Program-made: the position numbers and the translations under genes
Origin: Trichodelitschia bisporula
Taxonomy: Eukaryota; Ascomycota; Dothideomycetes; Phaeotrichales; Phaeotrichaceae
Assembly (NCBI GenBank): GCA_010356995.1
Contig: ML996689.1
Coordinates: 390,691 to 454,690 of the forward strand
DNA length: 64,000 nt
Direction: 5' to 3'
Shown here: one piece after another, positions 1-56,601 of the stretch
How positions within the stretch are numbered: the first letter of the stretch is position 1
Layout: each line of letters opens with the position of its first letter
Notes under the pieces: generated by a model
What the model was told of the DNA's origin: nothing
The model's database searches: none
What the model saw: only the letters and a program-made list of their open reading frames with translations

Positions 1-2944
1 AATGCGAATGGCCCTCGAGCGTATGCAGCAAAGCATCCCAGTTGTCCCTAACCTGCGGTAGTCCGGGCATCCGCAGAGGCATTTGGCTTTGAAACCACCT
101 TTTTACAAGGCTTGCTGTCGGGGAAAATACCAGCGCGCTGCAATATGTCTGCAAGGGAGCTAGTTCGATGGCTAACCGGTTGTAGAGGACAAATCGTTTC
201 ATGTCATGAACAAACTCCGATAGTCGGGGACACCTCTGCGCCTAAGCTAAGTATCAGCCAAGTATCCCCACTCTTCTTTAAGTCCAGCTTACCGATATCA
301 TGGACTCCAAAGACATGATGGCATGAACCCCTTCAGAAACCTTCTGCATCCATCCAAGCGCCTCAAGCCAATGAAGGAGATGCTCCTTCAGGAACTGATG
401 GACTTCACCGTCATCGTTGAGCTGAGATTTACCCTTATGAAGATGCTGTATCCAATAGAGGCATGCATACTGCTTCTCAGGATGGAGAGAGCCCTCAACC
501 TCATGACTGTCGACCTCGGTCTTGAGTACTCCAGGCCGACCTATTCCAAGCATGTCCTGCGTAAGGAAGTCAGACATGACCTGTATGCATTTCGTGGCAA
601 GGGCTTGATGCGCCTCCTCTTCATCACTCCAGATACCTGTTTTCCCGCTTCTTCCCGGATTGAGGAGGAAGTCACGAAATGAAGGGTGATGCAAACGTAG
701 TGCGTCACCTGGTTCCTTTGGAATGTCCAAAATGGCGTGAAGATCATCCAGTGCCCGACCCATATTCTGGCCGAGTAGCTTGCTCAAGGACCGGATGGAA
801 AGTGGGTCAAACAGGATCACGATGCTTCCAAGCAGTTCCTTCAATATGGATCGCAGCTTTTCTGCATCATCGTCTTCATAGTCGGTAAAGGATTGGCGAA
901 GAACAGTCGCGTAGATCTCGTCGAGATGCTTCTCTGGCGCTTTCACAGTACTATGGCTTTGGTCGAGGATCAAGCTTAGTCTCTCGGGAGCCAATGCTTT
1001 TCCTTGTCGAACAAAGCGGCATGCGGTTTCAGCCCAGATGAACAGGCCACTGGCATTCCGGACAAGAAAGTCGATGATTTGCTCACCTGGCCAATCTTTC
1101 CCAAAAGAGCGTCCCTGGGCTAGACCTTCGAACTCGTGCCGTAGGAAGAAGCGGATATCGTTGTCAACAGTCGACTTCTCGATGCTGTGGAGCAAAAAGT
1201 CCAAGTGCTCGCTTGTTGGCATTCCGGACAAAGGAGACCGGATTGGCACTTCAGGTCTGCTCGTTAAAAACAGCCGGAGCCGGGTTTTCTTCAGCAAATG
1301 AAAGAGATTCAGAATCTCCCCTATATCGTCCTCGCCCTCGCATTCGTCCAGGGCATCGACCACCAGGATATACGGAGTAGAGGAGGCGTCGCCTTCGAGC
1401 TTCGACATGGGACCGAGGATGAGATGATGCCACTGACTGCAGATAGGCTCTTCAGTGATGGTATCTCGCTCCTTCAGAGCCCTGTAGAGAGATCGCTTTG
1501 CCCCCGGCACATTGTCTGCAAGTTGCGCTGCGATGCTTGTCACGAGCTTGCCGGCATGCCGGACATCTGCGCCATTTCGCGAGAAGAAGAAGCTGGCTCC
1601 AAGTCTTCCTTTCTCAAAACATCCAGTGGCCACGGTTTGAGCCACGGTGGACTTGCCGGTGCCAGCTAAACCACTCAACCAGAAAATATTTGGCGAGTTG
1701 TCCCCGTAAGCCCAGGTGTAGATCTCTTTGAGAAGTTCAACACGGGTACCAATCAGGCAAGGCGAATTTCTCCGCTCGCATGGGTTGGATGGTGTGCCTG
1801 CAGCCCTAGGCAAGTTTAGGGGCATTGCCGGCGCGGATGGATATTCTGGCATCTCGACTTTGGCCGGCGGAACCAACAATAGAAGCTCTTTAGCGTACGC
1901 TGCCGCCGTCCCCGCCGCGTACGGCTGCCAGCTCTTGTTCTTATGCGAGTCAGAGTAGTCGCATATTCCCCGCACAACAAGGCACGGAAAACTGTTCATG
2001 AGCCCCGCCGCCTCCATCTCAAAGCAGAGTACGCCTCCAAGCTTCGTGCTGACTTTGTCTCGTTCCTTGGCATCGCGCATGACTTGGTTCCCGGAGGCTA
2101 TGGTTCCGTAATGGACAACAACATCCTCGCCGCGCGGCTGCCGCCGTACCACGTACTCTTTCCGGCACTTCTGGCAGTCGTCAGGTCCTCCCTCATGATT
2201 GTAGGTATCGTGGTATAAATCATCTGGCCCGGCTTTGTCCCGTGCAAATCTTGGGTACTGGGCGAGCTTCAAAAGAGAGTGTAAGAACCCGACTCTCTCT
2301 CGGAGGTTATTGGCCTTTAGGCTTGCCATCGCCTTCAGGAAGACCTGCGGGGGAGAATTGAGGGATCCAGTCCGTTCAAACTTGTCTGATGTCGTCTTGC
2401 CGAAGTCGTACTGCACTACTCCGCCGTGATCCTTGAACGGATGACTGACGACGACATCCCCAAGCCGTACATCAGCTGTACTCGGCACACCACCTCCGAT
2501 GCCCACCATCAGGCCGAGCCGGACAGAGTTGAATGTCAACTGCATCTGGGCAGCAACCGAGGCTGCCGCATTGGTTCCCATTTGGCCTACGGGTAGGCAA
2601 GCAATCACGACATTGTGTCCACCGAGGCGGCCAAGCACATAGACGTTGGAATCAGCCGCATTCTGTGGGAGACTCTGATGTTCCTCATCTAGCATCTCTT
2701 GAGCTGCCGCAAGTTCCATCGGGAGAGCGCATATCCATCCTATTGTGTATTCTTCATGACGAAGTCTGCGGGTTGGTCCACTGTTGGTGGCTCTCTGAGG
2801 GGCAAGTGGTAAAGATGATGTCTGGCCGACACTGCTAGTGGAGGCAGGCGTGGTGGTCTCGCCAGCAACAGGGGAGGAAGGTGGTGAAAGGCCGGAAGAG
2901 GCACAGAAGTGGCCCCGTGTCTGGACCCGCTTTGCAGGTGGCAT
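1..2944 (-). CDS. NOD-like receptor, PNP-NACHT-WD40 type (3' part beyond window)
   Basis: Cytosolic STAND-ATPase receptor of the fungal NLR class. Numbering from the ATG at 2944: a purine nucleoside phosphorylase/uridine phosphorylase-like domain spans about 65-360 (YTIGWICALPMELAA, GIGGGVPS, MEAAGLMN, VVRGICDYSDSHK). A NACHT ATPase follows from about 420, with Walker A GLAGTGKST (425-433) and Walker B ILVVDALDEC (526-534). An intron at 292-242 (GTAAGC donor, CTGAT branch) removes an early stop; an acceptor at 236 also keeps frame. The next exon continues to base 1 (CPRLSEFVHDMKRF) and ends in TLEGHSH, the usual first blade of a C-terminal WD40 propeller. Known fungal NLRs of this form sense ligands through the repeats and signal through the N-terminal domain. 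An upstream in-frame ATG at 3133 exists, but the segment after it is low-complexity, so 2944 is preferred. No inactivating break is seen in the visible part. Confidence 0.88.
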
Positions 2945-4450
2945 TTTGGAAATAATGATTCTAGTCAAGAAATTGCGGACTTGTGAAAATGCAGGAGTGC
3001 AACTCGAGGTTGAAGGCGAGGCTTTGGGGCTTCCAGCTGAGATCACCTGCGGGGCAGAATGCCAAGAATGAGGCTGTGAGCTGTCGGGCGCGGAGGGGAG
3101 GACGAGATTGGAGGAGACACAGCCACATGCCACAGGGCATCAAGTTCTCCTTCCAACTGATCAGTTCATAGACGAAGACTTCGCTGGAGGAGATACCCGG
3201 TTGTTCATCCATGTGCACCGCCTACGCTGCTTGCGTCGTCTATGCCCGCGTCGTAGGTGCTGTACGAGATATCGAGACTGACCAGGGCTCAAGCATAAAC
3301 GGGCTCGGGAGGATGCCGGAGTGGCGGTCATGGTTTTGGGCGGGAGTTTGGCAGCGTAGTGAGGGACAGACGGGGCATACAGTTCGCGACCCTCGTACCT
3401 CCCTACTTCCACTTCTCGTCTAGGCGCCCGCAGAACGCGCACACACACACGTCCTAACCCTGACCCACAGCACTGGCTCCCCCTCGGAAGCCAGCCTAAT
3501 CACCGACGCCACCTCCTTGCTGACCAGTACGCTGCCCTCCCCCCCGAGACGGCTCCTCCCGCGCACGCCGTACGAAATTCGCGCTCCCAATACCTGGCGC
3601 CGCGAACGTGTGCTGCTCGTGCGGCACATTACGGTCGCTAATCAACTTCAGGCCCAGCAACGAGCCCTCGTACGCCCCCGTCCTCATCCGCCAGCGCACC
3701 CGACACGCCCGCCTCAATGCCCCACGCGAGCCAAGTAGACGGTCTGTGCTCGGGCAGCGTGGCTGCTAGGGCGAGATCAGGCGAAAAGGTAGGCGAGGCA
3801 AAGGGTAAAGCGAGATGAAGAAGTGGGCAAGACGAAGAGGCGGGCGAGACGAAGGGGTAGGCGAGACGAAAAAGCGGCATGCGGGAGGACGTATTGAGGC
3901 GGCAGCGATGGAGAGACCCAAGAGGGGCACGAGGCGGAAGCTAGACAAAGTAGCGGAAGGCTGATTCTCGATGCGCGGTAAGCCGCTTTTTTGATTTTCT
4001 AATTCATATAATTCGTCCGCTGGAATTTGCTAGCCATCAACAGGCATACTGAACACTCTAAGAGCCCGACTTCTTGGAAGCCTGCATTGGGGAAATCTAA
4101 CGCTAGAAACGCCGTTACAAACCGCCGGATTTGGCGGCTATTTTCCCGGGACACAGGTATATGTCTGTGACCTATGGCCGTATGTGCTTGCTTGGGGATG
4201 ACATCGAAATAAGACTCTAAAAAATTGCAGCCTCACCTTTTCATAATCGGCCCGAATTCCAGGCTGCCATGACACCCCGCAGCCGTATGCAACAGTGCAG
4301 CAAGGCAATTGCACCTGACTGGTAGCGAGATAAAAACGAGGCCGCCCCAGGTCTGCAGGCGGCAGCGAGTTTATCCATTAGGACACTGGGAACTACCTTC
4401 CCCGCATTCGAGGCGCTGGACACGAGGCAGAACCGTATCTTGCGCGGCGC
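2945..4450. other. Intergenic region between the NLR and hydrolase genes
   Basis: This is the shared upstream region of two divergent genes. No convincing gene is seen. A minus-strand stretch at 3496-3717 reads like protein (YEGSLLGLKLISDRNV, then HTFAAPGIGSANFV) but has no recognisable family, no clear start and no splice context; it may be a gene remnant. Bases 3780-3870 are a short purine-rich imperfect repeat around GGCGAGACGAAG. Confidence 0.5.
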
Positions 4451-10485: not shown

Positions 10486-10798
10486 AATTATCTGGTCAGG
10501 TTCGTGAGCATCTTGCGAATTGGCGAAGACTACATAAAATTATCTGGTCGAGTTCGTCAGCCTCTCGCAAATCGGGTGAAGACTACATACAATTATCTGC
10601 TCAAGTTCGTCAGCTTCTGGCGAATTGGCGAAGACTACATGAAATTATCTGTTCAAGCTCGTCAGCCTCTCGTGAATCGGTAAAGACTACGTACAATTAT
10701 CTGGGCATGTTCGTAAGCCTCTTGCGAATTGGCGAAGACAACATACAATTATCTGGTCAAGTTCGTCAGTCTCTTGCGACTCGGTGAAGATTACATAC
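10486..10798. repeat. 52-bp minisatellite, six copies
   Basis: Units begin with AATTATCTG at about 10486, 10538, 10591, 10643, 10695 and 10747. Alternate units differ in a consistent way (GCGAATTGGCGAAGAC versus the CGAATCGGTGAAGAC type), hinting at a 104-bp higher-order unit. The period is not a multiple of three, so it is not a coding repeat. On the minus strand four of six units start GTATGT, GTATGT, GTACGT and GTATGT, and carry CTNAC then CAG, like tiny introns. Confidence 0.85.
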
Positions 10799-32280: not shown

Positions 32281-33183
32281 ATGAAAGTGAACCCATTCCT
32301 CTGTTTAGGTCTTCTGCAGCTCGCGGCCTGTTTCCCACTGCAAGATGAATACCGCTCCGAGCCACATAAACGTCACTTGGAGGAAGGGCACAGCCCGGAC
32401 GCCCTGGACTTGTCGCCTGTCACGGAGTACGGCCTCCTACCATCAACTGGCATTAACCGATGGATCCCGGCAAGCAAGATCCCAAACGCCTCTCGCAGTC
32501 CTTGTCCTCTACTGAATACGTTAGCTAACCATGGATTTTTGTAAGCTGATACCGATATTCATGAGCACGACTGATATTTGCGAAGGAACCGCGATGGCCG
32601 ATCGCTGACAATGTATCATATCGATGCCGCGATCATGTCCGCAATGAATATGGACCTGAACACGACCCAGCTTTTTACTGCAAATTGTTTCACAGAACTC
32701 GGCCTCAGCACCACCGATCCGTCTGTGGCCATAGACCTTGAAGATCTCAATGCTCATGGCCTAACCGAGCATGATGCCAGTTTGACTCGGTTAGACAAGA
32801 TCCAGGGCGACACTCTTCGCCTTCAACCTCATATGCTGGACAACATGCTCAATGATGCGGGACCATCTCCTTTCCTCAACACAACCTCAATGGGACGCAC
32901 GCGGGCGCGGCGCGAGAGGGAATCTCTGGCAGCCGGAAGTCCTATACTCACCTCAAAAGCGCAGGGGAGTTGTATGATTGAGGCGGCTTTGGTGTTAGTC
33001 TTGCTTGGGGGGGGAGAGGGAGATGCGCGGGTCGCAAACAAGAGCACGGTGGCGGAATGGTTCGCATATGAAAGGCTTCCGGTTACATGGAGGAGGAGTC
33101 CGAAGGTGCTGACACTGGAATATGTAACCATACTGGAGAACAGGATAAAGTCATGGCGTGATCGGTGGTTGTCTGGCAGCTAG
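32281..33183 (+). CDS. Heme-thiolate peroxidase / unspecific peroxygenase (chloroperoxidase family)
   Basis: Secreted heme enzyme, 285 residues from exons 32281-32540 and 32586-33183. The ATG starts a signal peptide (MKVNPFLCLGLLQLAACF). The proximal heme ligand motif is SPCPLLNTLANHGFL (Cys75), and splicing creates NHGFL-NRDGRSLT, a family hallmark. The acid-base/magnesium motif EHDAS (148-152) is complete, as are downstream blocks NTTSMGRTRARRERES and AEWFAYERLP. At under 300 residues it is a short-type HTP. The family oxygenates or halogenates aromatic and aliphatic compounds with hydrogen peroxide. Only one canonical 45-nt intron is needed. The stretch from about residue 208 (ILTSKAQG) is less conserved but stays in frame to the stop. 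Confidence 0.9.
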
Positions 33184-33566
33184 CTGTTCTTCACGGCCAT
33201 GCCGGAGTTCGTATGAGAGCGAAGAACAGAAAGTTTGTATGAACTTGACCAAATATTGGAATAGGCTACAGTATTGCCTGTTCAAGCCCGATGCTGGAAG
33301 TTGGCGATGGTTTGAGGCAACGGACCAGTTACAGGCGAGGACCCTTGGGGTCCGCTTCCCCGTGATGAAGACGTCACCGGGCGCATTGAGCACTCCCTGG
33401 TCTGTTCCCTCAGCACAGGGACGCGGCCAAGGCTCAGCCACATGCTTGTGAGCAAACGGTATCACCAGCCCCCCGCCCGTCTCTCGACTTCCCTTCCCCA
33501 TATCTCCACACTCTCCCCACGAACTGCGTGGAATCCGTCTTCCTCGGTCTCGACGCATCCATCAGC

Positions 33567-34236
33567 ATGAAGCTCCTAACCCCCGTCCTCCCGCTTCTGT
33601 GCGTTACAGCCGTCGCCGCGCGCTCAGTATGGCTCGGCGGCTCCAGCAACGAGCAGGTTGCACTGGGCGACGAGCTCAAGGTTCCCGGTGTGAACCCGCT
33701 GTTCTACTGCTCTGATGCGTCCAACGACCTTCTGGTCATCGATCACGTCGACCTGTCCCCGAATCCTCCTGAAGCGTGAGTTCGCCCGTGCTTCGTCGGC
33801 TTATCAGCGACCCCCTCGCCCCCGCTTTGTGTTTCCACTAGCCCGTGCCTCATTATCCGTGGGCTAACAACTCCCAGTGGGCAGAGCCTTACTATCGCGG
33901 CCAAGGGCACGCTCCTGGAGGACATCGAAGAGGGTGCCAAAGTACACATTCAAGTCAAGTTCGGCCTCATCACCTTGATCAACCAAGACACGGATCTCTG
34001 CGACCAGGTCAAGAACGTAGACCTCGAGTGCCCGCTGGAGAAAGGCGAGACCGTGCTCACCAAGACGGTTGAGCTGCCGAGCAGAATACCTCCTGTACGT
34101 TACGCGTTGCTATATGATGCTGGGATGCTAATGCGCTGTACAGGGCCGCTACAGGGTCCTCGCCGACGTTTACACCAAGGATCGCGTCAAGATCACCTGC
34201 CTTACCGCAGAGGTTGTGTTCCATCCGCACCTATAG
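33567..34236 (+). CDS. npc2: ML-domain lipid transfer protein (PG/PI transfer protein, NPC2-like)
   Basis: Exons 33567-33775, 33878-34094 and 34144-34236 give 172 residues. A signal peptide (MKLLTPVLPLLCVTAVAA) is followed by the ML domain with PLFYCSDASNDLLVIDHVDLSP, split here as PLFYCSDASNDLL and IDHVDLSPNPP, then TIAAKGTLLEDIEEGAKV, CDQVKNVDLECPLEKGE and GRYRVLADVYTKD. The paired Cys residues are present. Fungal homologues bind phosphatidylglycerol and phosphatidylinositol, and NPC2 binds sterols in the vacuole. The first intron is 102 nt, the longest here, and the second is 49 nt. An upstream in-frame ATG at about 33528 would only add a tail before the signal peptide. Confidence 0.92.
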
Positions 34237-34518
34237 ACAAATTGGTTAATGGGCCGCTGGGCATTGCGAGGGTGTACGATTAAGGATCTCGCCTGAGAGT
34301 CTCCGGACGATATCCTTCCGTTTGATGTTGCACTTAGTGTTTGGCATGGCGTACTTGGGACGATCACAAATTGACTTTCTACATATATCATAGTGTACAG
34401 GTTCATGAGCCGTATTGAACAGGTTACTGTTAGGACCACTTGCCCTGACTACGCTCCGACAAGTGATCTTCACTCGCCTCGTACACAGAATATCATGAGC
34501 CTGCAATGACTATTGAAC

Positions 34519-34637
34519 ACATACGGCCACAGATCGGAGAAAGCACCAGTACCCGTCTGCTCACTGAGGTTAAGCTCTGAATCGGTTGACTAGTAGTTGC
34601 GTGGGTGACCAGCAGCGAATCCCAACTGCTGTATGTT
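34519..34637 (+). rRNA. 5S ribosomal RNA (divergent copy)
   Basis: Starts ACATACGGCCAC and ends GCTGTATGT followed by a T5 run (34636-34640), the usual Pol III stop. The 3' half is well conserved (TAGTAGTTGCGTGGGTGACC, then CAGCGAATCCCAACTG), and the 5' and 3' ends can pair. The middle (about 34530-34580) differs from typical filamentous-ascomycete 5S, yet GATCGGAG and CTCTGAATC can still pair, suggesting compensatory change. Single dispersed 5S genes are normal in these fungi. It may be a variant functional gene or a slowly decaying copy. Confidence 0.85.
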
Positions 34638-39005: not shown

Positions 39006-40717
39006 CCTACTCGTCTACTTAATGTAATAACATAGTTTTAAGCTTAATACCACCCGAGTTGTTCGTTGATGTCTCATTCCAGGTCAACAAGATGACCATC
39101 AAATCCGAACCCCGCCTCCCCGGACTTCAAGCCATGCTCCACGAGCGCCGCTGTCTCACTGACGATGTCATACTGACGAGGTCCTTTCTACCACCATCGT
39201 TTGTCGAAACTGGCGTGGCTGTCGGTAGGTATGGCTCGAAGTCGGTATTTGAGCTGTCCAATCAAATCGTGCACTTACATCCCTGCGACGATATTGCCTT
39301 CAACATTGAAGCGTCGGACGACCGCAGCTTTACGAATAGCTCGATCCCCACGCAATAAATGCGCTTAGAGGAGCTAGATATGCACTTACATGAGAGCCTC
39401 AACCCCTTCGCACGTGGCGGAACGCAAGCCGGAGCGGGAAGTTGCCATTCACCGAATCGATGCCCATGGCAGCACATCCCGCGCGGCGAAGCGCCTGGCG
39501 CTTAAGCAGGCGCAGTCGTCTACGGCACCAAAGGAAAGGCATTCGGAAACGACGAGATGAGCTTGAATGGGCCGCGGGTGCACTCCGCAGATATTAATCT
39601 CTCGCAGCGCTTCGCCGTGTCCTTGACATTCTGACTGTTACTACGTGCATAAGACTGGCGGCTGGTGACGCGAGGCTGGTGACTCCCAAACAACGTCACC
39701 GCGACCACATATCCTTGATATCAGTCGTAACAGGGACGGGATTCTGAAAACATCGGACGGATGTGGCTGCCGACGCTTGGTTTGAGTTGCCGGATGACGC
39801 GAAAGGACTTGAAGCCGTTTTCATTCAAGGTTGGAGCAGTAAAGCTCAAACGCGAACAAAGGCGACCCCTCTTGACTTCCTCGGAAGATGGCGGCAATTC
39901 AGGAGCTTTAAATAGCCGGAGTCGTACGTCATGGTTCCCGCGCACACCTCCAGGCGAAGTCCATGATGTTTCTCTCGGCTGTTAACACCGTGGCCAAGGA
40001 TCGCGTAATCACGGGACCTGGTGCTCCAACCTCCGTTGTTCTTGCCATTTCAACCCTTTGCTAACTTCACACACGGTCGCTTTGAGTCTCTGCTATCATC
40101 CTCATTCTATCACGGAACCTGAACTCCTCGCGAACTTTCTTGAACCTCAATCCAGGCATCTTCGGGTGCGAACTCATGGCACAGTCTACTGAAATATCCA
40201 AATGACGGGGCGCACAACCTTCAAAAGCACAGTTAGAGGAACCAAAAAAATTCCCAGGCCTTCCTTGCATGTTTCAAGTCGCGGAAAGCCAGTCAGTATC
40301 TGGCTGTTGGCCGTCAAAGGCCGGGCGCCAACAGGATGAAACTCCCCGAAGGCTATGCCGCCCCGGCGCTTAGCAGGCCGGACCTCCCTTGAGCCTCCTT
40401 CGGTTCCTGGTTGACAGCATCGATCTACAACGGCTGCTGCATCCAGCTGCGCCTCGCTGCGGTATCTTTCTTTTTCCCACTTGCGCCGCTGAATCCGGCA
40501 TTACGCGCTCTCCATGGCCCACCCATGTAGCGGCCGCTGTCGCTTGAGGCGCTCGTAAGCGCGGTTCCGACGCAAATGATATGCTCCGTACCGGCTTGCA
40601 GCGGTAATATTCATATTCACTCTGGCCCCATGGATGACCTGAGCAGGTGCTCTGAAATCCACTTTCTTTCACTGTTGTCGATTTTCATCCACAATTTCAT
40701 CGGGTCCCGGACACCCA
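39006..40717. other. Intergenic, no supported gene
   Basis: 1.7 kb. A plus-strand frame at 39092-39358 reads MTIKSEPRLPGLQAMLHERR and so on for 88 codons with fairly protein-like composition, but it has no family, so it is only a possible small gene. The rest is empty of recognisable features. Confidence 0.4.
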
Positions 40718-42828
40718 ATGAACGCCCCAAAAATACATCAGGAGCCGGTCCCTCAAACTGCAAATATCGGCAACTCTCAAGACCATGATGAAAACTTCAC
40801 CAAAGAAGTGGAACCTCATAGTCACTTTCGGAATGCATTTCTGCGCAAGTACGGAACGGCCGATACCGACCTTGAGAGCAACTTCAAGAGAGCCGAGTCT
40901 GGAGCGTCAAAACTCTCCGTTGTCGGCGGACAAACTCATCGTTGGAGCGTGCTGTCAAGGTTGATAGTTGACTGGTGGCTTTGGGAGCTCTTGAGCTGGG
41001 TCATTGGCGCGCTTTCCTTTTGTGGGATCGCGCTCATTCTCGGCTATTTCGACAACCGGACTCTTTCCTCCAAAGGGCTCTTAGGCATAACGATCAATGC
41101 CTACATCTCAGTTCTTTCTGCTATTGGGAAATTCGCTCTTGCTGTACCGGTGGAGGAGGCATTGGGACAACTGAAGTGGTTATGGTTTTCGGCTGGACAA
41201 CCCCGGAAGCTCATCGACTTCGAGCGATTCGACGGCGCGAGCCGGGGTCCGTGGGGATCTTTCATGTTTCTTTTGCACATGAAAGGCCGGTAAGTTGACG
41301 GTGTGGAGCTTATGCTTGCTTTGAATAACATTTTCGAAGGTCCTTTGCCTCGCTAGGCGCGATTGTAACGTTGCTCTCACTTACCCTCGATCCCTTTTTC
41401 CAACAAGTGGTTACATTCCCGCAACGCCCGAGCATATACGGAAGGAGTATGCTGACACGGGTTGTGAGGTTCAACCCCATGGACGCCGTTACTCAGGATG
41501 CCACGGACCACAATACGACGATTATTTCTCCCGACGGTCGCTTGGACGAGGCTATTGGACCGTATTTCTTAGGTAATCCATCCGTGCCGCCGGTCAACAG
41601 CTTTTGTCCGTCAGGGACGTGTACGTGGCCCAAGTTCGATACTCTTGCATTGTGCGGAGCCTGCGAGGATATTGGAAACCTCCTTACTTTTGATTGTCTC
41701 TACGAATCCGGAGATTGGCGGTCCGATCAAAGTTCGTACCTCAACAGCTCTTATGGTGTTACGTGGGTCGACGCCAAGGGTAACCCTACCTCGAAAACAC
41801 CGGCAGGAATGTCCTGTGGCTATTTTCTTAATGCCACCAGCGACAATCCCATCATGATGACCGGGTATGCTCTTTCTTCAAACAATTCCGCCTCGAAGAC
41901 GGTCGGCCAAGGGCTGCTTATGCGTCAACTTCCACTCCGACATGGACTCTCAACGGAGACAAAATGGGGCGGGTCCATTCATTTTCCAAACACCAGTCAG
42001 CCCATAATCGATTTCATCACTGTTGCTACGGAAGACGGGACTTCAGTCTACGCCAACAAAACCCCAGTCGCCCACGAATGCATGCTGCAATGGTGCGTCA
42101 AAACTATTGCGGCCTCCTCTTCAAATGGGGAGTATAAGGAAGAAGTTGTTTCAACCTTCGTGGATGGCTCCGGGCCTCTGGATGGCTGGCATCCGTTCTT
42201 CAGAGATGGGATCGTCAGGCAACACTATTCCCTGAACGTCACCTTGACCCCGCCTGGTCAAAATGACACTTTCTGGGTCTCAAACTTGACCATGTTCCAG
42301 CAGATGGTCCTATTCAATCTTGCTCTCCCAAGCTACTTGACAGTGGATGATCCCTCCACTACTCCAATCCTTCGGTATTCCAACATCCTCCGGAACTATC
42401 CGGCCTTGAAGAAGACACCCAATGACCCGTGGCTGCCTCCCACCAACATTAGTCAACATTTTGAAAACATGGCCACGAGCATGGACCGAGCTCTGCGGTC
42501 ATATCCTAATACGACAGAGAAGGTTTTCGGCACTGGAAGTTTTGAGACGTACGTCCACATTCGATGGGCATGGCTCACCTTACCATTCATCGTCCTGCTT
42601 TTGAGCTCTTTGTTCCTTTTTGTAACTATCCTAGAGAGCTGTCGGCGGAGAGATGTGGGCATCTGGAAGACTTCTTCGTTGGCAACATTGGCATATGGGC
42701 TTTCGGATGATGCGAAGGACGAGCTTGGCTCGTCCCGGAGTATGCTGGAGCTGATAGAGAAGGCCAATGGGATGGAAGTGTCGGCCATGCCAGGGGAAAA
42801 TGCGAGGCTGACCCCAAAGTTTAAATGA
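40718..42828 (+). CDS. DUF3176 membrane protein, copy 1
   Basis: Exons 40718-41289 and 41340-42828 give 686 residues. After a 75-residue polar tail come the DUF3176 hallmarks: IVDWWLWELLSWVIGALSF, LGITINAYISVLSAIGKFAL, EALGQLKWLWF, IDFERFDGASRGPWGS. A third membrane helix follows immediately after the splice junction (SLASLGAIVTLLSLTLDPFF). A long extracellular part (about 215-610) has many NxS/T sites and paired Cys (SFCPSGTCTWPKF, LCGACEDIG). The final helix is LPFIVLLLSSLFLFVTIL, then a cytosolic tail. Function of the family is unknown. The next gene has the same organisation and an intron at the same site, so the two are tandem duplicates. Confidence 0.9.
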
Positions 42829-43924
42829 ATAGATCTACTTGTACCATATCTGGAGGCTTAATACTCAATATCACCATCATCATCAAGAAAGCACCTGAGA
42901 TAATGCCTACGGAGGTTCCTCTCGTGCTCTGCAAAAAAATTCAACTGGCTTTTTGTACACTCAGAGCGACGGATTTGGGACTCACAACGGACAAAAACAT
43001 GCGCAATCTACTGTACCCAAGACCAAATCCCTTTACGCAATGCAAAGATATAGAATGATTTGACTTTCGCACTGGAGAATACGATTGCAGACCCTGAAGA
43101 TCAAATCTTAATCCAACAGTTTCTCTTTGTTGGCGCGGCTCTTCTTGATTAACTTCCCACAATTGAAGATCGAGGACTCACGTGGTTGTGACTTCCACTT
43201 CAAGTACCGTATACGCGCGCATGAGCTGATCCCCACCTTCCTCCCAGCCTGCGCTGCCACGTGCTGCTTCATGAGCCGCAATGTTTCCGAACATCAACCT
43301 GAAACGCGAAACGACGGCCTGAAAAGGGCGGGACTTCCCTGTAACACGTATGACAGTTTGATGGATAGTCGTGTTGGATCGATCAGCGCTTAACGCGCAG
43401 CTGTCGGAAGGCGCCTGCTGGAAGCTGATTCGGCTTGCTGGCCAGTGCACCGCTGAGCCGCATCCGCTGCGCTTGGAACGTGATTTTCATTCGCCGAACG
43501 CGCCCAGGCTGCAGGGTAATTGTCCATAATTAGTGAGCCGACCTATTTCCTTTCCTGGCTGTTTTATGTTTCAAACGCCCACCTTCACTTGATCCGAATT
43601 CCGATGCATCATGCTCCATTGATAGAAATGCCCGGTAGGGCAGTGTGGGCCACCATGCGGTGCACTCCGTACATATGGCCCGAGCAATCGAAGGCGATTG
43701 ATGTGTAGTTGAGATTTTGGTCCTTTCCATCGGTTTTTCTTTCTCGGTTTTCATGGCATGGTGAGTACCTCGAAATCCCTCTGGCCAAGAGAGACAGTGA
43801 GTACTAACGCGAAGAACAGCCAATATTAATACTTTCTCCGCACTCTCATGATTTTTTCCTTGTCACCTGTAACCTGTTGGTCAGATTCATTAGTTCCCGC
43901 TCGTACATCCCCCTCAACCATTTC
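42829..43924. other. Spacer between DUF3176 paralogues
   Basis: About 1.1 kb with no gene supported. Promoter sequence of the second paralogue must lie in its right half; no clear TATA motif close to the start. I see no trace of a third copy. Confidence 0.45.
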
Positions 43925-46145
43925 ATGTCGACCGGTGTGAACGACGGATCTGGGTTCCAACCTACCGTCGGCCGTTATGCAGGACATAACGGTCCCTATC
44001 TTCAGACTACTCCTCAGCTCCCCCGTCTTCCACCTCTCCCAGTCCCTCAGGAGCCAGCTCTCACGTTGAGCCGACACCATCTGTTCGGACCGACTCGGGA
44101 GAGGCTTGCCGTTCCCGCCCCCGATCATGCAACGACCCTGCCACCTCCCAGTTCCCCACATTACCGACAGCAAGGATGGCCGGCCCGGGAATTCCAGTTC
44201 TTGGGCAACACTACCAATGCTATTCCCTATTCCCAGCGTTACAATCCGGTTTCGAGCCCCCCCCCGCGATCGACTCGGTTGGTGCAGGGCATCCGACGGT
44301 TCGTCATCAAGTACATCGTGGAATGGTGGTTGTTGGAAATCCTCAGCTGGATTTTCAGTGCGCTATGCATGAGTGCCATTTTTGGCGTCTTGTTGTACTA
44401 TGCTGGGCGCAAGATTCCCAATTGGCCGCTTGGTATTACAATCAATGGCTTCATTTCCGTCTTTTCAGGTCTTGCGAAGGCCGCTTTGTTACTGCCGACA
44501 GCAGAGGCCTTGGGTCAACTGAAATGGAATTGGTTTCGTGACGGCAAGAGACCCATGATTGATTTTGAAAGAATCGACATGGCAAGCAGAGGACCGTGGG
44601 GTGCCTTCATTCTCCTGGGGCGGATGAGAGGAATGTACGTATCCGGCTCTGACACCATAGGCCCGGTTGAAGTGCTGACCTCTGATTTTGAATAGGACTC
44701 TCCCCTCGATTGGCGCCGCCATCGTGCTCCTGGCCCCTCCGCTAGACATTTTCTTCCAACAAATGGTGTCATACCCATCAGCGTTCGTTCCGGGGCCTAC
44801 CAATGGCACGATCTCTCGAGTCCTCGCGTATGATCCTCTAGATGGAGTGAACTTCAGGAACGGCGTCAAAAAAATCCTTCCGCCTCGAGACTACTCCTTC
44901 GCGGAACAACTGCTCTTCACCAACGGCAGCGCTTTGGAGCCGAATTTCAATTGCCCAACAAGCAACTGCACCTGGGAGCCATTCGAGACCCTAGGTGTTT
45001 GCAGCAAATGCGCCGACGTATCCCAGGACGTGTACTTTCGATGTCAAAATGGAACCGGGGAGTGGATGAGCAACGTTTCATCCACGGATCCGTATCCAAA
45101 TGTGGCAATGTGTGGATACTTTCTGAACCTTCCGAAAAGCCCACCAGTGTTTCTCAGTGGCTACGCTGTTGACGCCAGTGGAAAGCCGGGAGAGGCTATG
45201 TCCACACAGATCCTGTCGTTCTCCAACACATCCTCGCGGCTCCCGCTGTATGGAGGATCCATGCGCTTCAAGTATGTCCGGAGTCCAATCTGGGATCTGC
45301 TAGTGTCAGGGACGCCTGGAGGGATTGCTGGTGCGTATGGGGCCGTAAAGCCAGAAGTGAATGAATGCATATTCTACTTCTGCGCAAAAACGGTCCAATC
45401 CGGAGCGTACTGGGGACGCCTGAGTGAGAATGTCGCTAAAGAAGTTCCCTTGGATGCTTCGGAACCATATCCATGGATCGTCGTGGATCCAGTAAAGAAT
45501 CTTGTGCGATACCTGGCCGAATTTAACTTGGAACTTCCTTCGCATGGAGACCAAGCAGCGCTCCAGAACAACACGTTTTTCGTCTCCAACCTGACGGCTG
45601 TGAAAACTGCCTTGCTCATCGATGAAATTGCACCTTCTTATGTCACTGCACTGAACGCGTCAGTAGCCCCGCTTCTGAAGTACGACAATGCCTTAAGGTT
45701 TGGAGGATCTCTCATTGAGGCCAACCCACAAACCAATCCTTGGATGCCGCCGAACAACATTACCGCACATGCCGAACGCCTGGCCGCGACTTTAACATCG
45801 ACCTTTCGGAACACAAGAGAAGGAGAGGGTGATGTGGAAATGGTGTTGGGGATTGCCTGGGAAGAGAAAACGTTCATCAGCTTCAGATGGGTTTGGTTCA
45901 TCATGCCTGTTGCGCTGTTATTTTTTAGTCTCATATTCCTTGTCGCAACGGTCATTCGGAGCTCTCGGGATGAACCAGATGTCGGGATTTTGAAAACTTC
46001 GACAATAGCCGTTCTTTTCAATGGACTGGGCAAGGATGTGCAGGAAGAAGTGAGACCGAATTGTCCGATAAGTGAAGTGAAGGCTCGGGCCCGGGAATTG
46101 AAGGTGACATTGCGGGCTTCAGGAATTTCGACGCCGGGGCTCTAG
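43925..46145 (+). CDS. DUF3176 membrane protein, copy 2
   Basis: Exons 43925-44634 and 44696-46145 give 719 residues. A long Pro/His-rich N-terminal tail (about 120 residues) precedes IVEWWLLEILSWIFSALCMS, WPLGITINGFISVFSGLAKA, EALGQLKWNWF and IDFERIDMASRGPWGA, matching copy 1 block by block. The extracellular region keeps the CPTSNCTWEPF and CSKCADVS Cys pairs and ends before the last helix (IMPVALLFFSLIFLVATVI). The intron (61 nt) interrupts the same site as in copy 1, directly after the RGPWG block. The N-terminal tails differ strongly while the membrane core is conserved, implying an old duplication. Function unknown; the secreted peptide gene lies convergently just downstream. Confidence 0.9.
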
Positions 46146-46830
46146 GCGCTTGTTGTGTGTAGAGTGCAGGGTGGCAGCCATATTTTTGACTTTAGACATT
46201 AGAGCGGAGTATCCGGGCTCTTCAGGCGAGGTACACGGTTTGGGTCATGGGCAGGCTCGACGGAGAGCTCTGGATAGTTAATAATTATGACTGATGAATG
46301 ATGAACGAGAATTGGGATCACACAAGTTAGCTTTTTCGGACAAAGTGATCATGGTAGAATGACATACCTCATGACATGGGAGTAAAACACCTTCGCAATC
46401 CACATCGTGATTGCGAATGAAGACGCAAAGCAAGGCAGCGCACGGAACTAGGTCACGCTTGGGATCAGTAGAAGCAGAACGAGGCAGCTGGAAGCTGGGA
46501 TTGCCGGCAATGTTGGTGAGCCAGGTTTCACTTCCGGAACAGAACGTGGACGTTTGGGACGAAGGCGTGATGAATTCCCAGAACCCAATCCTATCGTACA
46601 AAAGACTCCAAAAACGGCCTTGTAGTCCCGAGTGAAGAAATCTGCTACCCGATCGAGGGCGGAGAAGGTGATGGAAAAGGAATAGGAAGCCAATTAACGG
46701 GCGTGGAAGCCGGCTCAGCACACTACGAATACGCGTTCTGTCAAAGATTAGTAAGAGGTACGGCGCATCGGCAATAGGGGGTCAGGCATACCTCTCTTTC
46801 AGCCTCAATTGCACCCCATCGTTGAGCATC

Positions 46831-47776
46831 TCATTCCTGATCAAGCGCTCTTTTACCGACTAGAGGCAGGTTAGCGCACAGAATTCGAAGGGCACGGCGG
46901 CAACTGACATCCTTGACCATCCTGACCCTGAGCAAGACCACGCTTCCCGACTTGGGGTCCCGTTAGCATCGGACATTCCGAGGGGCTGGAAACTCGCTTA
47001 CAGCCTTGCCCATCTTGCCCCTGTGCAAGTGAGCGCTTTCCGACTAGGAGCGCCGTTAGCATCAGAAACTTGGAGGGGCTGGAACCTGCTTACAGCCTTG
47101 ACCATCTTGACCCTGAGCAAGACCACGCTTCCCGACTTGGATCCCGTTAGCACCAGACATGTCGAGGGGCTGGAACTTGCTTACAGCCCTGACCATCTTG
47201 ACCTTGAGCAAGACCACGCTTCCCGACTTGGGTCCCATTAGCACCAGACATGTCGAGGGGCCGGAACTTGCTTACAGCCTTGACCATCTTGACCTTGAGC
47301 AAGACCCCGCTTCCCAACTTCGGGCGCCGTTAGCATCATGGAGCCGAAGGGCTGAAACCTCGCTTACAGCCTTGACCATCTTGACCTTGATCAAGACCTC
47401 GCTTCCCGACTTTGGGTCCCATTAGCAACAGACATTTCGAAGGCTGGAAAGTCACTTACAGCCTTGTCCATCTTGCCCCTGCGTAAGAGAGCGCTTCCCA
47501 ACTGAAGCATCCCGTTAACGTTGAGCACTATAATGGCCTCGATAGCCTACAGCCTTGACCGTCCTGCCCTTGGGCTAGACCCCGCTTCTCCCCTGAGACT
47601 CTGGTCAGTGTCCTCCATTAAGAGGGATAATGGGACGGCCTACAGGATATACCATTATCGGGGTTAGAAAGGAGATCCCGCGTAACGACGGGGGCGATGG
47701 TACTTGGGACCGGAGCCGCAAAAGCGGAGGATGCAAAAAACGCGGAAAGAACGACAACAACAGCTGAGAAGCGCAT
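46831..47776 (-). CDS. Secreted kexin-processed repeat-peptide precursor, one exon per peptide
   Basis: Ten exons: 47776-47653, 47592-47551, 47501-47460, 47409-47368, 47317-47276, 47226-47185, 47135-47094, 47043-47002, 46950-46909, 46859-46831; 162 residues in frame. Exon 1 encodes a signal peptide (MRFSAVVVVLSAFFASSAFA) and a short pro-region ending DNGEKR. Exons 2-9 are each exactly 42 nt and encode one 12-residue peptide ending in the Phe codon that the intron splits, plus the next Gly and KR. Peptides: GLAQGQDGQGFG five times, and SLTQGQDGQGFG, GLDQGQDGQGFG and SLAQGQDGQGFG once each. Exon 10 gives GKRALDQE and the stop. Introns 2-9 are 49-51 nt, nearly alike, with GTAAGC-type donors and mostly GCTAAYGG branches. 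The design matches KEX2-processed precursors (alpha-pheromones, dikaritin and epichloecyclin RiPPs), but the core peptide is not one I recognise. No UstYa-type gene (HxxHC) was seen nearby. Confidence 0.85.
46860..47592 (-). repeat. Tandem array of about 91-bp exon-intron units
   Basis: Eight units, spaced 91-92 bp apart as judged from the CAGCCTTG landmark at about 47550, 47459, 47367, 47275, 47184, 47093 and 47001. Each holds a 42-nt exon and an intron of about 50 nt. Introns 5 and 6 differ at about three of 49 positions, so introns are as alike as exons. This indicates recent unit duplication or gene conversion at the DNA level. Confidence 0.95.
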
Positions 47777-51172: not shown

Positions 51173-52909
51173 TCAGTTGGCCCCGCTGTTCTTCTTCGCC
51201 TTTACCAGCCATGCCAGAAGGTCGACCTTCGTAACCACGGCAACAGCCTTCAGGGCTCCACCAGCCTCCTGCTCTGTGACAACCGCTGCGCTGTTCCACT
51301 CGAAGAACCGGCTCAGCGCGCTAAGCGGAGTGTCACGCGTGATCTCGACGAACTTTCTCCGCTTCGGCCGCGCCGCATTATCCGTGAGCACCGATGAGAT
51401 TTCCTGGCCCTTGGGAGCGACAAGCCCAATGCTCGTAGGGTCCGTCACCTTTTCCGACAGCCGCGTGAAGTCAAACATAACGCTGCTGACTGGGTCGCTG
51501 GGATTGGCCCGACCCCTGCTGATGTAGCTGAGCAAGTTGCCGAGCGTAACAAGCCCGACGAGCTTTTGGGACGGCGAAGACACCGGCAGCTGGTCAAAGC
51601 CCTTGTCACGCATGGTTTCGATGGCTTCAGAGCAGGGCGAGGTCGAGGAAATGGTGGTGACGGGCTTGAGGCGGAGCGACGCAATGGTGGCGCCAGCGAA
51701 CGGATCCTTGGGCCGCAGGGTCGGCGAAGACGGCTCCGTAGGCGTGTCGGGGAGGCTTGCCGGGAGGAGGTCGTTTGCAGCCAGCCAGTCGTCGTCCACG
51801 AACTGCCTTGGTTAGCGGGCGACCGTAGACAGACAATACACTGACCTTGCTCAGGTAATTCCGGATGCTGTCAGGGCAAACGATAACCACGACATCACCC
51901 TTACCCAGTCCCAGGTCCTTCACCGCCTTCACCATCGCCGCAAAGGCGCTGCCGCTGCTTCCGCCAACAAGCAGACCCTCTTCAGAGATCAGCCTCCGGG
52001 CGTATGTAAACGACTCCCGGTCATCGGTCTTGTACCACTTGTCTACGACCTTCTGCTCAAGGACCTCCGGAATGAAATCGTAGCCAATGCCTTCGACCTT
52101 ATAGGCTTCATTTTCGTGCTCTTTGTTCAGGGATTCTGGAACTGCGAGAATGCTCCCCTGCGGATCAGCGGCTATAATCTTGATGTTCGGATTATGTTTC
52201 CGCAGTCCTTTGGCAATTCCGGTCACCGTGCCACCAGTCCCAGCTCCCGCAACGAGCACATTGACTTTGCCGCCGGTTTGCTCCCAGATTTCTTCTGCCG
52301 TACCTAGCTCGTGTGCAAGCGGATTGTTGGGATTGGCATACTGGTCCAGGATGTGGGCATTGGGAAGTTCCTTCTCGAGACGTCTCGCAACGCCAATATG
52401 TGATTCCGGAGCGTCATAAGCCGCGGCGGTGGGGGTACGGATGATCTCGGCGTTAAGAGCACGCAGGACCGCAACCTTTTCAGCAGACATCTTCTCAGGA
52501 AGTGTGATGATCATCCTGTAGCCTGAACTGTCAGCGTGAGCGGCAATACAAGGCCATGTCTAAGCTACCTTTCACGGCGGCTACAAGCGCCATGCCGATC
52601 CCTCTGCTTGACGTTAGATGTGTTCGGTGCCGGAGACTCATATGCCTACGTGTTCCCGCTCGTCGGCTCGATCAAGGTGTCGCCGGGCTTTATTCTGCCT
52701 TCCTTCTCGGCCTCTTCGATCATGCGGAGAGCAATGCGGTCTTTCACGCTGCCACCGGCATTGAACAGCTCGAGTTTGGCATAGACAGTCGCCTCAATGC
52801 CTAAGCTCTGCGGCAGCTTGTTCAGCCGAACCATGGGCGTGTTGCCGATTTGCTCGAGGATGGACTGCATGAGTACGGGAGGGATTGCGGGACGCGTTTT
52901 AGAAGCCAT
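51173..52909 (-). CDS. cys4: Cystathionine beta-synthase
   Basis: PLP enzyme of transsulfuration, condensing homocysteine and serine to cystathionine in the cytosol. Exons 52909-52650, 52603-52569, 52522-51846 and 51802-51173 give 533 residues. PLP lysine lies in [13 protein letters not shown] (Lys56), the phosphate and substrate loop in EPTSGNTGIGMALV (formed across the first intron), and the Gly-rich PLP loop in [19 protein letters not shown] also matches. The C-terminal exon adds a pair of CBS (Bateman) regulatory domains ([18 protein letters not shown], then [17 protein letters not shown]), which separate it from cysteine synthase. No heme-binding N-terminal extension is seen, as in yeast Cys4. 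An ATG eight codons upstream (52933) is an alternative start. Exon 2 is only 35 nt, a microexon. Confidence 0.95.
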
Positions 52910-53404: not shown

Positions 53405-56400
53405 ATGGCGCGGCTCGGGCGCCTGGGCTTCCTCGCCATTGCCGTTGTCTTCCATCTCATCTATGTCTACTCCATCTTTGACATCTACTTTGTGAGCCCC
53501 ATCGTGAGGGGGATGCGCGAGCACAGTGTTGCGACCGCAGAGGCTCCAGCGAAACGGTTGGTGTTATATGTTGGTCAGTAGCTTAGCGCATCAAATGACA
53601 ACTCAGTCCGAATAATTGTCCTGATTGAACTGTGCAGGAGATGGCCTCCGCGCCGACAAGGCCTTCCAGTCCTTCCCTGACCCGTCACCCGCCGAGAATG
53701 ACCCCGATGCGCCCACTCCCCGACCGCTGATGCCCTTTCTGCGCTCAAAGGTGCTCCGTGAGGGGACTTTTGGCGTGTCTCATACCCGTGTACCTACCGA
53801 ATCTCGGCCGGGCCATGTCGCGCTCATTGCCGGTCTCTACGAGGACGTCTCTGCTGTCACCACCGGCTGGAAGCTGAACCCTGTCAACTTCGATAGCGTG
53901 TTCAATCGCAGCCGACATACATGGAGCTGGGGAAGCCCGGATATCCTGCCTATGTTCCAGCAGGGTGCGGTGCCGGGCCGGGTGGATGCGTACACATATG
54001 GCCACGAGGCGGAGGACTTTACCGCCGACGCAGTCGATCTTGACATCTGGGTTTTTGACCACGTAAAGGCCCTCTTCGAAAGCGCAAAGACCAACGCCAC
54101 GCTGGATGCCGCACTTCGCGAGGACAAAGTTGTGTTCTTCCTCCACCTACTGGGACTGGACACTACCGGCCATTCATATCGGCCCTACTCGAAAGAGTAC
54201 CTCCACAACATCAAAATCGTGGATAAGGGGGTTCAGGAAATAACCGAGCTCATGGAAGAGTTCTATGGCGATGGGAAAACGGCATATGTGTTCACTGCGG
54301 ACCACGGCATGAGCGACTGGGGAAGCCATGGGGACGGCCATCCAGACAACACGCGCACGCCATTGATAGCATGGGGCTCCGGAGTTGCTCCTCCAGTTAC
54401 AAAGTCCAGGGGTATCGCGGCGGGGCACGAAGATGGGTTTTCTGCTGACTGGGGCCTTGACCATGTCCAGAGGAATGACGTTGCACAAGCCGACGTTGCG
54501 GCGCTTATGGCGTATCTCGCTGGGCTTGCGTTCCCAGTCAACTCTGTCGGAGAGCTGCCACTGGCCTACCTTGCAGCTACTTCGAAAGCAAAGGCCGAGG
54601 CGCTGCTTGTCAATGCCCGTGGGATGCTTGAGATGTACCACGTGAAGGAAGAGCAGAAGAAAAGCACTGAGCTCCGGTATAGGCCGTACCCAGGCTTCGC
54701 GGATGAACAGAATTCCGTCGAGCATCGCATTGCGCAGATCGAGAAGTTGGTCAAGAAGAGCCGTTCGAAGGAGGCCATCGCGCAATGCAATGAGCTCATT
54801 CAGCTCACGCTCCAGGGGCTCCGGTACCTCCAGACATATGATTGGTTGTTCCTCCGGGCGCTGGTTACGGCGGGCTTTTTGGGATGGATAGCCTATGCCA
54901 TCACTACCGTCGCCGACCTTCACGTGCTTCATGGGACGGCCGCCCCCCAGCGGAGCCTTTTCAGCAACATCTTTTTCTCTTCAATTCTTGTGGCACTGTA
55001 CTCGCTGCTCTATGTTCAGCAATCGTCGTGGACGTACTACGCCTATGCCATCTTCCCAGTGTTCTTCTGGGAAGAGGTTTTTGTTCGCCGCGGCGCCCTG
55101 AAGCAAGGAAAAGATGTACTTTTTGGCCATGTTACTTCGGTCGGTGGCTACATTGGGATGATATTCAAGGCATTGGCGTTTCTGGGCCTGCTCGAGGCAT
55201 TGGTAAGCGATGAGCGCACTGGTTAGCATATGCTGATGTCGTCCAGGTTCAAAGCTACCATCATCGGGAAGTCTACACAGTGTGCTATCTCCTCGCGATC
55301 ATGTGGCCGGCGCTTTATGGGATGAACTTCGTCAAGGAGAACAAGCTCCTCATACTCGCATGGAGCCTCTCCTGCGCTTCTATGAGCGTGTTCACTCTCC
55401 TGCCCGCCTTAAAGGTGGAGGACTTGAACATGGTGTAAGCACGGTGCATCTTCGCATTGCTAAATACTAATATATCCAGGCTCGTTGGTGGCGGCTTGAT
55501 GTTCGCTGTTGGAGTCCTCTACCTCATCTTCGAAGAGAGCATCGTGCAACAAGCGAGGTCTGCCAGTGTGGCGGGTACTTCCACCCTCATGACTCCCTAC
55601 TCTTCCACGATTGTCGGCATTCAGGTACGTCTTTTTGCATCGCATGAATCGCGCTTACAAATTAGCTCGGCCTAATAATCCTGGCCATGATCACGACCCA
55701 CTCGAGCATCACGTCCCTCCAAGCACGACAGGGTCTCCCACTCGGCACGCAAATCGTCGGATGGGCCGTCCTCGTCTTATCCCTGGCGGTGCCCTTCCTC
55801 CACGGCCTGGACCCGAACAAACACTATCTCCACCGCCTGCTCGTCATCTTCCTCGCCTTTGCACCTATTTTCATCATCCTCACCATCTCCTACGAGGGCC
55901 TCTTCTACTTCGCCTACTGCATCACCCTCCTCACCTGGGTACGCCTCGAGCACCACATCTACACCTACACCTCCACATCGAAGCCCTCCCCCTCACCGCC
56001 AACTGCCGAGCTAAACCCGCTCAAGCCCGCCCTCGCCGCCGCAAAATCGCGTATTGAGAACATCAAAGAAAACAAGTTCCGCGCCCTCACCCTCACCGAC
56101 GCACGCATCAGTCTTTTCTCCTTCTTCCTCCTACAATCCGCCTTCTTCAGCACCGGCAACATCGCCTCCATCTCCTCCTTCTCCCTCGACGCCGTCTACC
56201 GGCTCATCCCCATTTTCGACCCTTTCGCACAGGGCGCGTTGCTAATGTTTAAGATCCTCGTCCCCTTCGCTGTGCTCAGCGCTAACCTCGGCATCCTGAA
56301 TCGGCGCCTCGGCGTCGCGCCTTCCGCGCTGTTCATGATCCTCATGGCCGTGGGCGATGTGATGACGATATCGTTTTTCTGGATGGTGCGCGATGAGGGC

Positions 56401-56601
56401 AGTTGGCTCGACATTGGGACGAGTATTAGTCACTTTTGCATTGCCAGTGGGTTGTGTGTGTTTGTTGCGGGGTTGGAGGTTGTGAGCGAGGTGTTTGTTA
56501 GTGGGGTAGAGTTTGAGGAGGCAAAAACGGAGGTTGAGGAAAAGGGTGGGCACGACAAAGTTCATAATGGGTCGGTGGACGTGGATGAGGTGAAGACCTA
56601 G
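53405..56601 (+). CDS. mcd4: GPI ethanolamine phosphate transferase 1 (PIG-N)
   Basis: ER enzyme that adds ethanolamine phosphate to the first mannose of GPI anchors. Exons 53405-53573, 53638-55202, 55247-55434, 55480-55624 and 55666-56601 give 1000 residues. Start MARLGRLGFLAIAVVFHLIY is the N-terminal membrane anchor. The lumenal alkaline-phosphatase-like domain has YVGDGLRADKAFQ (metal site, formed across intron 1), GVSHTRVPTESRPGHVALIA with the catalytic Thr, and FTADHGMSDWGSHGDGHPDN. The C-terminal half is the multi-pass PigN domain with more than ten membrane segments. Length matches yeast Mcd4 and other fungal orthologues. The stop lies only 64 bp from the convergent downstream gene. 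Confidence 0.96.

Follow-up and report, generated by a model that had tools for sequence, protein, structure and literature searches.

A minus-strand gene in a 64,000-nt stretch of Trichodelitschia bisporula DNA (the window) is, judged from its sequence, well supported as a gene for a Kex2-processed repeat protein (KEP); its architecture is unusual, and its product and function are putative. Very probably the array is the KEP precursor of this filamentous ascomycete, from which linear 12-mers would be released at KR sites and would likeliest be signal-like. The KEP kind itself is already common in fungi, and what appears new is the architecture, in which symmetric class 1-1 exons carry one peptide each.

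Ten exons and nine introns could be joined into a single open frame, from the ATG at 47776 to a stop ending at 46831 (Table 1). The initial annotation had described a precursor with a signal peptide and a pro-region before eight 12-mers, each with a KR behind it and an intron of its own, and the spliced frame bore this out. The exons measure 133 or 124 nt, eight times 42 nt, and 29 nt, and the spliced precursor has 162-167 aa, the choice at intron 1 setting the length. It begins with the predicted signal peptide MRFSAVVVVLSAFFASSAFA, whose cleavage site before APVPS looked canonical by eye, and continues with a short pro-region, the eight 12-mers with their KR, and ALDQE before the stop. All eight copies follow the consensus [GS]L[ATD]QGQDGQGFG: GLAQGQDGQGFG occurs five times, and SLTQGQDGQGFG, GLDQGQDGQGFG and SLAQGQDGQGFG once each. 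The core contains 5 Gly and 3 Gln in 12 residues, one Phe, and neither Tyr nor Trp. By calculation the 12-mers have a GRAVY of -0.63 to -1.07, which makes them hydrophilic, and an acidic pI of 4.05. The linear [M+H]+ of GLAQGQDGQGFG is 1134.517 and those of the other three forms are 1164.528, 1178.507 and 1194.539; cyclisation or another loss of water would lower each by 18.011.

Each internal exon starts at codon position 2 and ends after position 1 (class 1-1), so that its 14 codons hold one peptide and one KR. Tandem Repeats Finder described the array as a 91-nt unit in 6.5 copies (score 704). In introns 2-9 the donor is GTAAG in six of eight and GTAGG or GTCAG in the remaining two, and the branch site, 11-13 nt upstream of the intron end, is CTAAC/CTAAT in seven and TTAAC in one. 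The weaker signals belong to intron 2 (donor GTAGG, branch TTAAC) and intron 9 (donor GTCAGT). At intron 1 all four donor-acceptor combinations keep the frame, and exon 2 has the 42 nt of the other internal exons solely if this intron ends at 47593. The earlier claim that all internal exons are 42 nt and class 1-1 thus holds for exons 3-9, but exon 2 has 42 or 48 nt. Just 3' of the precursor stop, the minus strand at 46278-46829 contains an intron-like segment (46791-46738; GTATGC, CTAAT, CAG) and an open frame with no Pfam match; this stretch may belong to another gene or represent an intron in the 3' UTR.

Table 1. Positions of the precursor gene parts and of other features in the window
Feature	Position	Strand	Description
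Exon 1	47644..47776	-	133 nt, or 124 nt ending 47653; ATG, predicted signal peptide MRFSAVVVVLSAFFASSAFA, pro-region APVPSTIAPVVTRDLLSNPDNG
Intron 1	47593..47643	-	donor 47643 GTAGGC or 47652 GTATAT; acceptor 47593 or 47599
Exon 2	47551..47592	-	42 nt (or 48); peptide 1 GLAQGQDGQG(FG), EKR before
Exon 3	47460..47501	-	42 nt; peptide 2 SLTQGQDGQG(FG)
Exon 4	47368..47409	-	42 nt; peptide 3 GLDQGQDGQG(FG)
Exon 5	47276..47317	-	42 nt; peptide 4 GLAQGQDGQG(FG)
Exon 6	47185..47226	-	42 nt; peptide 5 GLAQGQDGQG(FG)
Exon 7	47094..47135	-	42 nt; peptide 6 GLAQGQDGQG(FG)
Exon 8	47002..47043	-	42 nt; peptide 7 SLAQGQDGQG(FG)
Exon 9	46909..46950	-	42 nt; peptide 8 GLAQGQDGQG(FG)
Exon 10	46831..46859	-	29 nt; finishes FGKR of peptide 8, degenerate tail ALDQE, stop
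Introns 2-5	47550-47502, 47459-47410, 47367-47318, 47275-47227	-	phase 1
Introns 6-9	47184-47136, 47093-47044, 47001-46951, 46908-46860	-	phase 1
DUF3176	40643-41293	+	Pfam
DUF3176	43808-44695	+	Pfam
Cystathionine beta-synthase-like gene	51173-52559	-	PALP and CBS domains, Pfam
PIG-N	53625-56601	+	Pfam
S8 subtilase, partial	58748-60059	-	over two ORFs, Pfam
Family-2 peroxidase	32575-33183	+	Pfam
5S rRNA gene	34519-34637	+	the window's sole Rfam match at gathering scores
Fungal NLR-like protein	278-3139	-	NACHT/NPHP3_N and PNP_UDP_1, Pfam
Tandem repeat	10486-10798		period 52, six copies; Tandem Repeats Finder

From the distribution of changes over codon positions, an intron control, sequence identities, unit lengths, splice signals and plus-strand stops, we conclude that the array exons code on the minus strand and that their splicing is maintained. 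Across the eight exons, the minimum numbers of changes at codon positions 1, 2 and 3 were 2, 4 and 19 (19 of 25 at third positions; p=1.6e-5), and without the first repeat they were 2, 2 and 15 (p=6e-5). The intron control used the first 34 nt of the introns in six of the eight units, two introns being omitted because their length would put them out of register in a gap-free alignment. Here the changes numbered 12, 9 and 13 by position modulo 3, versus 2, 2 and 11 at the codon positions of the matching exons. Identity within the array was 82% for exons, 60% for introns and 91% for the encoded 13-residue stretches; mean dN of the exons was 0.06, and dS ranged from 0.11 to 2.53 and was undefined in 3 of 28 pairs. 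QGQDGQGFG and the following KR are identical in every copy (8/8) while third positions drift. Differences in unit length are confined to the introns (49-51 nt for introns 2-9, within 46860..47550), exons 3-9 all having 42 nt. Donor, branch and acceptor positions were 90% alike, a figure somewhat inflated because the branch site was found by its own motif, and the rest of the intron was 53% alike upstream of the branch and 50% downstream. Coding on the plus strand was rejected, since six of the eight exons contain stops in the frame whose third positions would coincide with the variable sites.

The consequences of altered splicing were worked out in silico. Retention of any of introns 1-7 truncated the protein, retained intron 8 (51 nt) gave an in-frame insertion, and retained intron 9 altered the tail only. 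Skipping any single exon among exons 2-9 kept the frame in 8/8 cases. The adjacent introns at 47275-47227 and 47184-47136 share 94% identity, a sign that an entire exon-intron unit may have been duplicated recently. Because the 91-nt units were copied from one another, repeated splice signals and phases prove little alone. The frame is indeed open through nine splices to the stop, as had been pointed out initially, but this is weaker evidence than was stated, the units being mutual duplicates.

If the gene encodes a KEP, nine splices would give the mRNA for a pre-pro-protein, which its signal peptide would lead into the ER. In the Golgi, kexin would cleave behind every KR and a Kex1-type carboxypeptidase would strip the KR. 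The 12-mer, linear and rich in Gly and Gln, would thereby be released in eight copies, most likely as a secreted signal-like peptide of the hormone or pheromone class. We infer that the gene is expressed and spliced in the cell, that its product is cleaved and secreted, and that the 12-mers are linear and have a signalling role. This role is plausible, and it is favoured by the constancy of the core and KR in the face of silent drift. The duplicated unit would be an exon with its intron. Every 42-nt exon, being class 1-1, holds one peptide with its KR, so the frame would survive the gain, loss or skipping of copies of the 12-mer, and unequal exchange inside introns should be harmless because the exons are symmetric.

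In PMC7329392 and PMC6339444, KEPs are defined by a signal peptide and three or more near-identical peptides, each 8 aa or longer, with KR or a similar site between them. The array resembles them in its signal peptide and its KR-spaced near-identical repeats, and differs in giving each peptide an exon of its own. Where three or more tandem repeats, each 8 aa or longer and set between KR, KK, RK or RR, are called for, it has eight of 12 aa, each with KR. A kexin is also present: the genome's one P_proprotein match falls within an ORF with a Peptidase_S8 domain on the array's own contig, ~1.25 Mb away, which makes KR processing of the precursor plausible. The partial S8 subtilase in the window is not this kexin, since the only P-domain match is elsewhere. 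Counting against the KEP reading, no XA/XP dipeptides of the STE13 type stand behind KR; GL or SL is found in 8/8 copies and AL in the tail. A secreted kexin-processed repeat precursor with one exon per peptide, as first proposed, is still the best reading given the spliced frame, the coding bias and the kexin match.

The 12-mer had not been recognised at the outset, and protein, Pfam, NCBIfam and literature searches did not match it either. Among the 8000 best-sharing candidates scored in a 5.8-billion-protein database, no credible relative of the precursor was found; P0001 (E 2.9e-4), a metagenomic ORF with RGLAEKN/RGLADGK-like repeats, was rejected because it has no more than short words in common with the precursor. 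The read-through 72-aa frame gave 10 candidates in this database, 0 at E<=1. Degenerate exon DNA had 0 matches in genome_contigs and 0 in viral_contigs, as expected for prokaryote and virus sets. In its own genome the array had one DNA match, and a protein search with the peptide copies returned two matches, both within the array (E 0.19 and 0.30). NCBIfam assigned 0 families to the precursor, its sole Pfam match, MYT1, was below the cut-off (19 of 27 bits) and was discarded as a composition effect, and the letters of the 12-mer retrieved 0 papers. The FG-KR ending resembles an animal amidation signal. The amidation profile PF01082 had 0 matches in the genome and also 0 in the control genomes, so it is uninformative.

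The database does contain fungal proteins. The DUF2418 gene of the window had 1194 matches, one of them its own entry (P0002, 100%), whereas the precursor protein was not returned at the cut-offs used. Own entry aside, none of the best 120 of the 1194 matches exceeded 57% identity at >=80% query coverage, so close relatives are apparently absent from the database. Among the matches listed, Verticillium was second by E-value (44%) and Trypethelium had 61% over 68%; the named ones among the best 120 of 1194 we take to be mostly Dothideomycetes. The missing homolog is weak evidence of absence, because short intron-rich genes are probably poorly called. An unrecognised KEP peptide would also be ordinary: PMC7329392 counts 7878 KEPs, which come from 1345 of the 1461 strains surveyed, and 2560 of these KEPs have no homologs. 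As to the proposal of a previously undescribed product, the peptide was unmatched in these searches, but the class of the precursor already has a name, and what is unusual is the exon architecture.

No fungal precursor with an intron per repeat is described in the portions at hand of PMC7329392, PMC6339444, PMC9632046, PMC9769878, PMC12048977, PMC7099791, PMC8786786, PMC10569646, PMC10182648, PMC11122761 and PMC3731216. PMC6339444 nowhere uses 'intron' in its main text, and no occurrence of 'introns' was listed for PMC7329392. Some KEP genes do have introns, since excerpts of PMC9769878 tell that Coprinopsis KEPs were cloned from cDNA for intron-less sequences and expressed in Pichia pastoris; the same excerpts name epichloecyclins as possibly KEX2-processed. 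The epichloecyclin precursor GigA of Epichloe is, like the array, a kexin-site repeat precursor. Of the gene architectures that the searches turned up, that of the caerulein and magainin genes of Xenopus laevis, a vertebrate, comes nearest to the tandem peptide exons; the sequences are unrelated and the likeness is one of gene architecture alone. That a one-exon-per-peptide precursor is without a printed fungal case is provisional, as it rests on searches of the open-access literature.

The 12-mers might instead be structural, as Gly/Gln-rich surface or cell-wall peptides with a role like that of the Ustilago Rep1 repellent peptides. The Gly and Gln content of the core and the eight copies, which would favour bulk supply, fit such a role, and some KEP-type peptides control cell-wall structure according to parts of PMC6339444. 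We consider this unlikely, because the 12-mers are hydrophilic and acidic and repellents are hydrophobic.

It is quite unlikely that the 12-mers serve as core peptides of a cyclic dikaritin-type RiPP, crosslinked by UstYa-family oxidases after Kex2 cleavage, although the precursor has the KEP layout shared with UstA-type dikaritin precursors. DUF3328 (UstYa) genes accompany 22% of KEP genes (PMC7329392), and UstYa matches number 11 in the genome, spread over eight loci, but 0/11 lie on the array's contig (C3), with the reservation that short exon fragments may escape the search. The window has 68 ORFs of 150 aa or longer; among the 38 searched with Pfam, none matched UstYa, tyrosinase, methyltransferase or P450. 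A family-2 peroxidase match lies ~14 kb off and might speak for this reading. The core, with a single Phe, is also poor in aromatic residues. The ribosomal natural product suggested in the initial annotation is therefore not upheld in the dikaritin sense, as no match to the defining enzyme was found nearby.

A more classical UstYa-linked KEP array occurs elsewhere in the genome, at locus L017 (C2:1194000-1203900). At 7.0-8.0 kb of this locus, a continuous array with 26 counted IFARVDKR is built of the units DPIFARVD, EADPIFARVD and EAEPIFARVD, each followed by KR. The D, EAD or EAE before the units places XA/XP dipeptides behind KR, fitting the STE13 signature, and a UstYa fragment lies ~1.7 kb away. 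This KR array at a UstYa locus provides a conventional dikaritin-like array for comparison within the genome: it has the Kex2-site repeat layout in common with the precursor array but is one continuous open array, whereas the precursor has an intron in every repeat. L017 was the sole convincing KR-repeat array around the eight UstYa loci (~10 kb each), and Tandem Repeats Finder detected no array of period near 91 nt in these regions. Arg-rich frames turned up as well when KR-spaced repeats were looked for, in L011, on the L017 minus strand and in the window at 4694 (+), all low-complexity by eye.

Among the ORFs searched with Pfam, the recognised genes nearest to the precursor are the DUF3176 pair on one side and the cystathionine beta-synthase-like gene on the other. 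The tandem DUF3176 pair (40643-46145, +) lies on the opposite strand just beyond the 3' end of the precursor gene, and the open frames after the DUF3176 matches, to 46145 (+), had no Pfam match. An ML-domain match is close to the family-2 peroxidase, within 32575-34283 (+). We know of no listed neighbour (DUF3176, cystathionine beta-synthase-like, PIG-N, subtilase or peroxidase) that is a dikaritin tailoring enzyme.

The precursor could also be the fungus's alpha-pheromone with an unusual core, serving as the STE2 ligand, but this is improbable. Ascomycete alpha-pheromone precursors are likewise secreted repeat precursors cut by Kex2, STE2 is present in the genome (E 1.2e-63), and no obvious conventional gene was seen: exact WC..PGQ.C and PYG[LM]P[IV]G had 0 matches each in the genome, and C...GQ.CW had 2, equal to the reversed control (2). 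Sections of PMC6339444 report diverse alpha-pheromones in Dothideomycetes, with PYG[LM]P[IV]G as their core. The 12-mer, in contrast, has neither two Cys nor this core, and lacks the STE13 signature. Known alpha-pheromone-type KEPs carry STE13 dipeptides behind KR. A conventional gene may still be present, because C...GQ.C had 139 matches against 99 in the reversed control, and WC..PGQ.C with <=2 mismatches had 141 against 98, with one same-strand pair on contig C4 among the matches listed. Two same-strand pairs among the best 100 of the 139 C...GQ.C matches were rejected, their sequences not being pheromone-like.

That the array is a tandem DNA repeat or decayed gene with no working product is highly improbable: no homolog was found, the splice signals of introns 2 and 9 are weaker and intron 1 is ambiguous, but the third-position bias, the intact ten-exon frame and the retained splice signals argue otherwise.

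KEPs are numerous and their function is mostly unassigned. The two KEP surveys worked from annotated proteins, as parts of PMC7329392 and PMC6339444 tell, and they may have a blind spot here, since genes with 42-nt exons and 49-nt introns would be easily lost by gene callers. A further and less likely possibility is that fungi have a largely unannotated class of KEP genes in which a symmetric mini-exon with its intron is the amplified unit. In such genes peptide number would evolve through intron-mediated unequal exchange and might be tuned by exon skipping, and surveys of annotated proteins would miss them. The example in T. bisporula would then encode a new secreted signalling peptide, possibly the STE2 ligand. 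The architecture of the array makes clear predictions on exon skipping and copy-number change, and it would give fungi a counterpart of the frog skin peptide genes with their tandem peptide exons.
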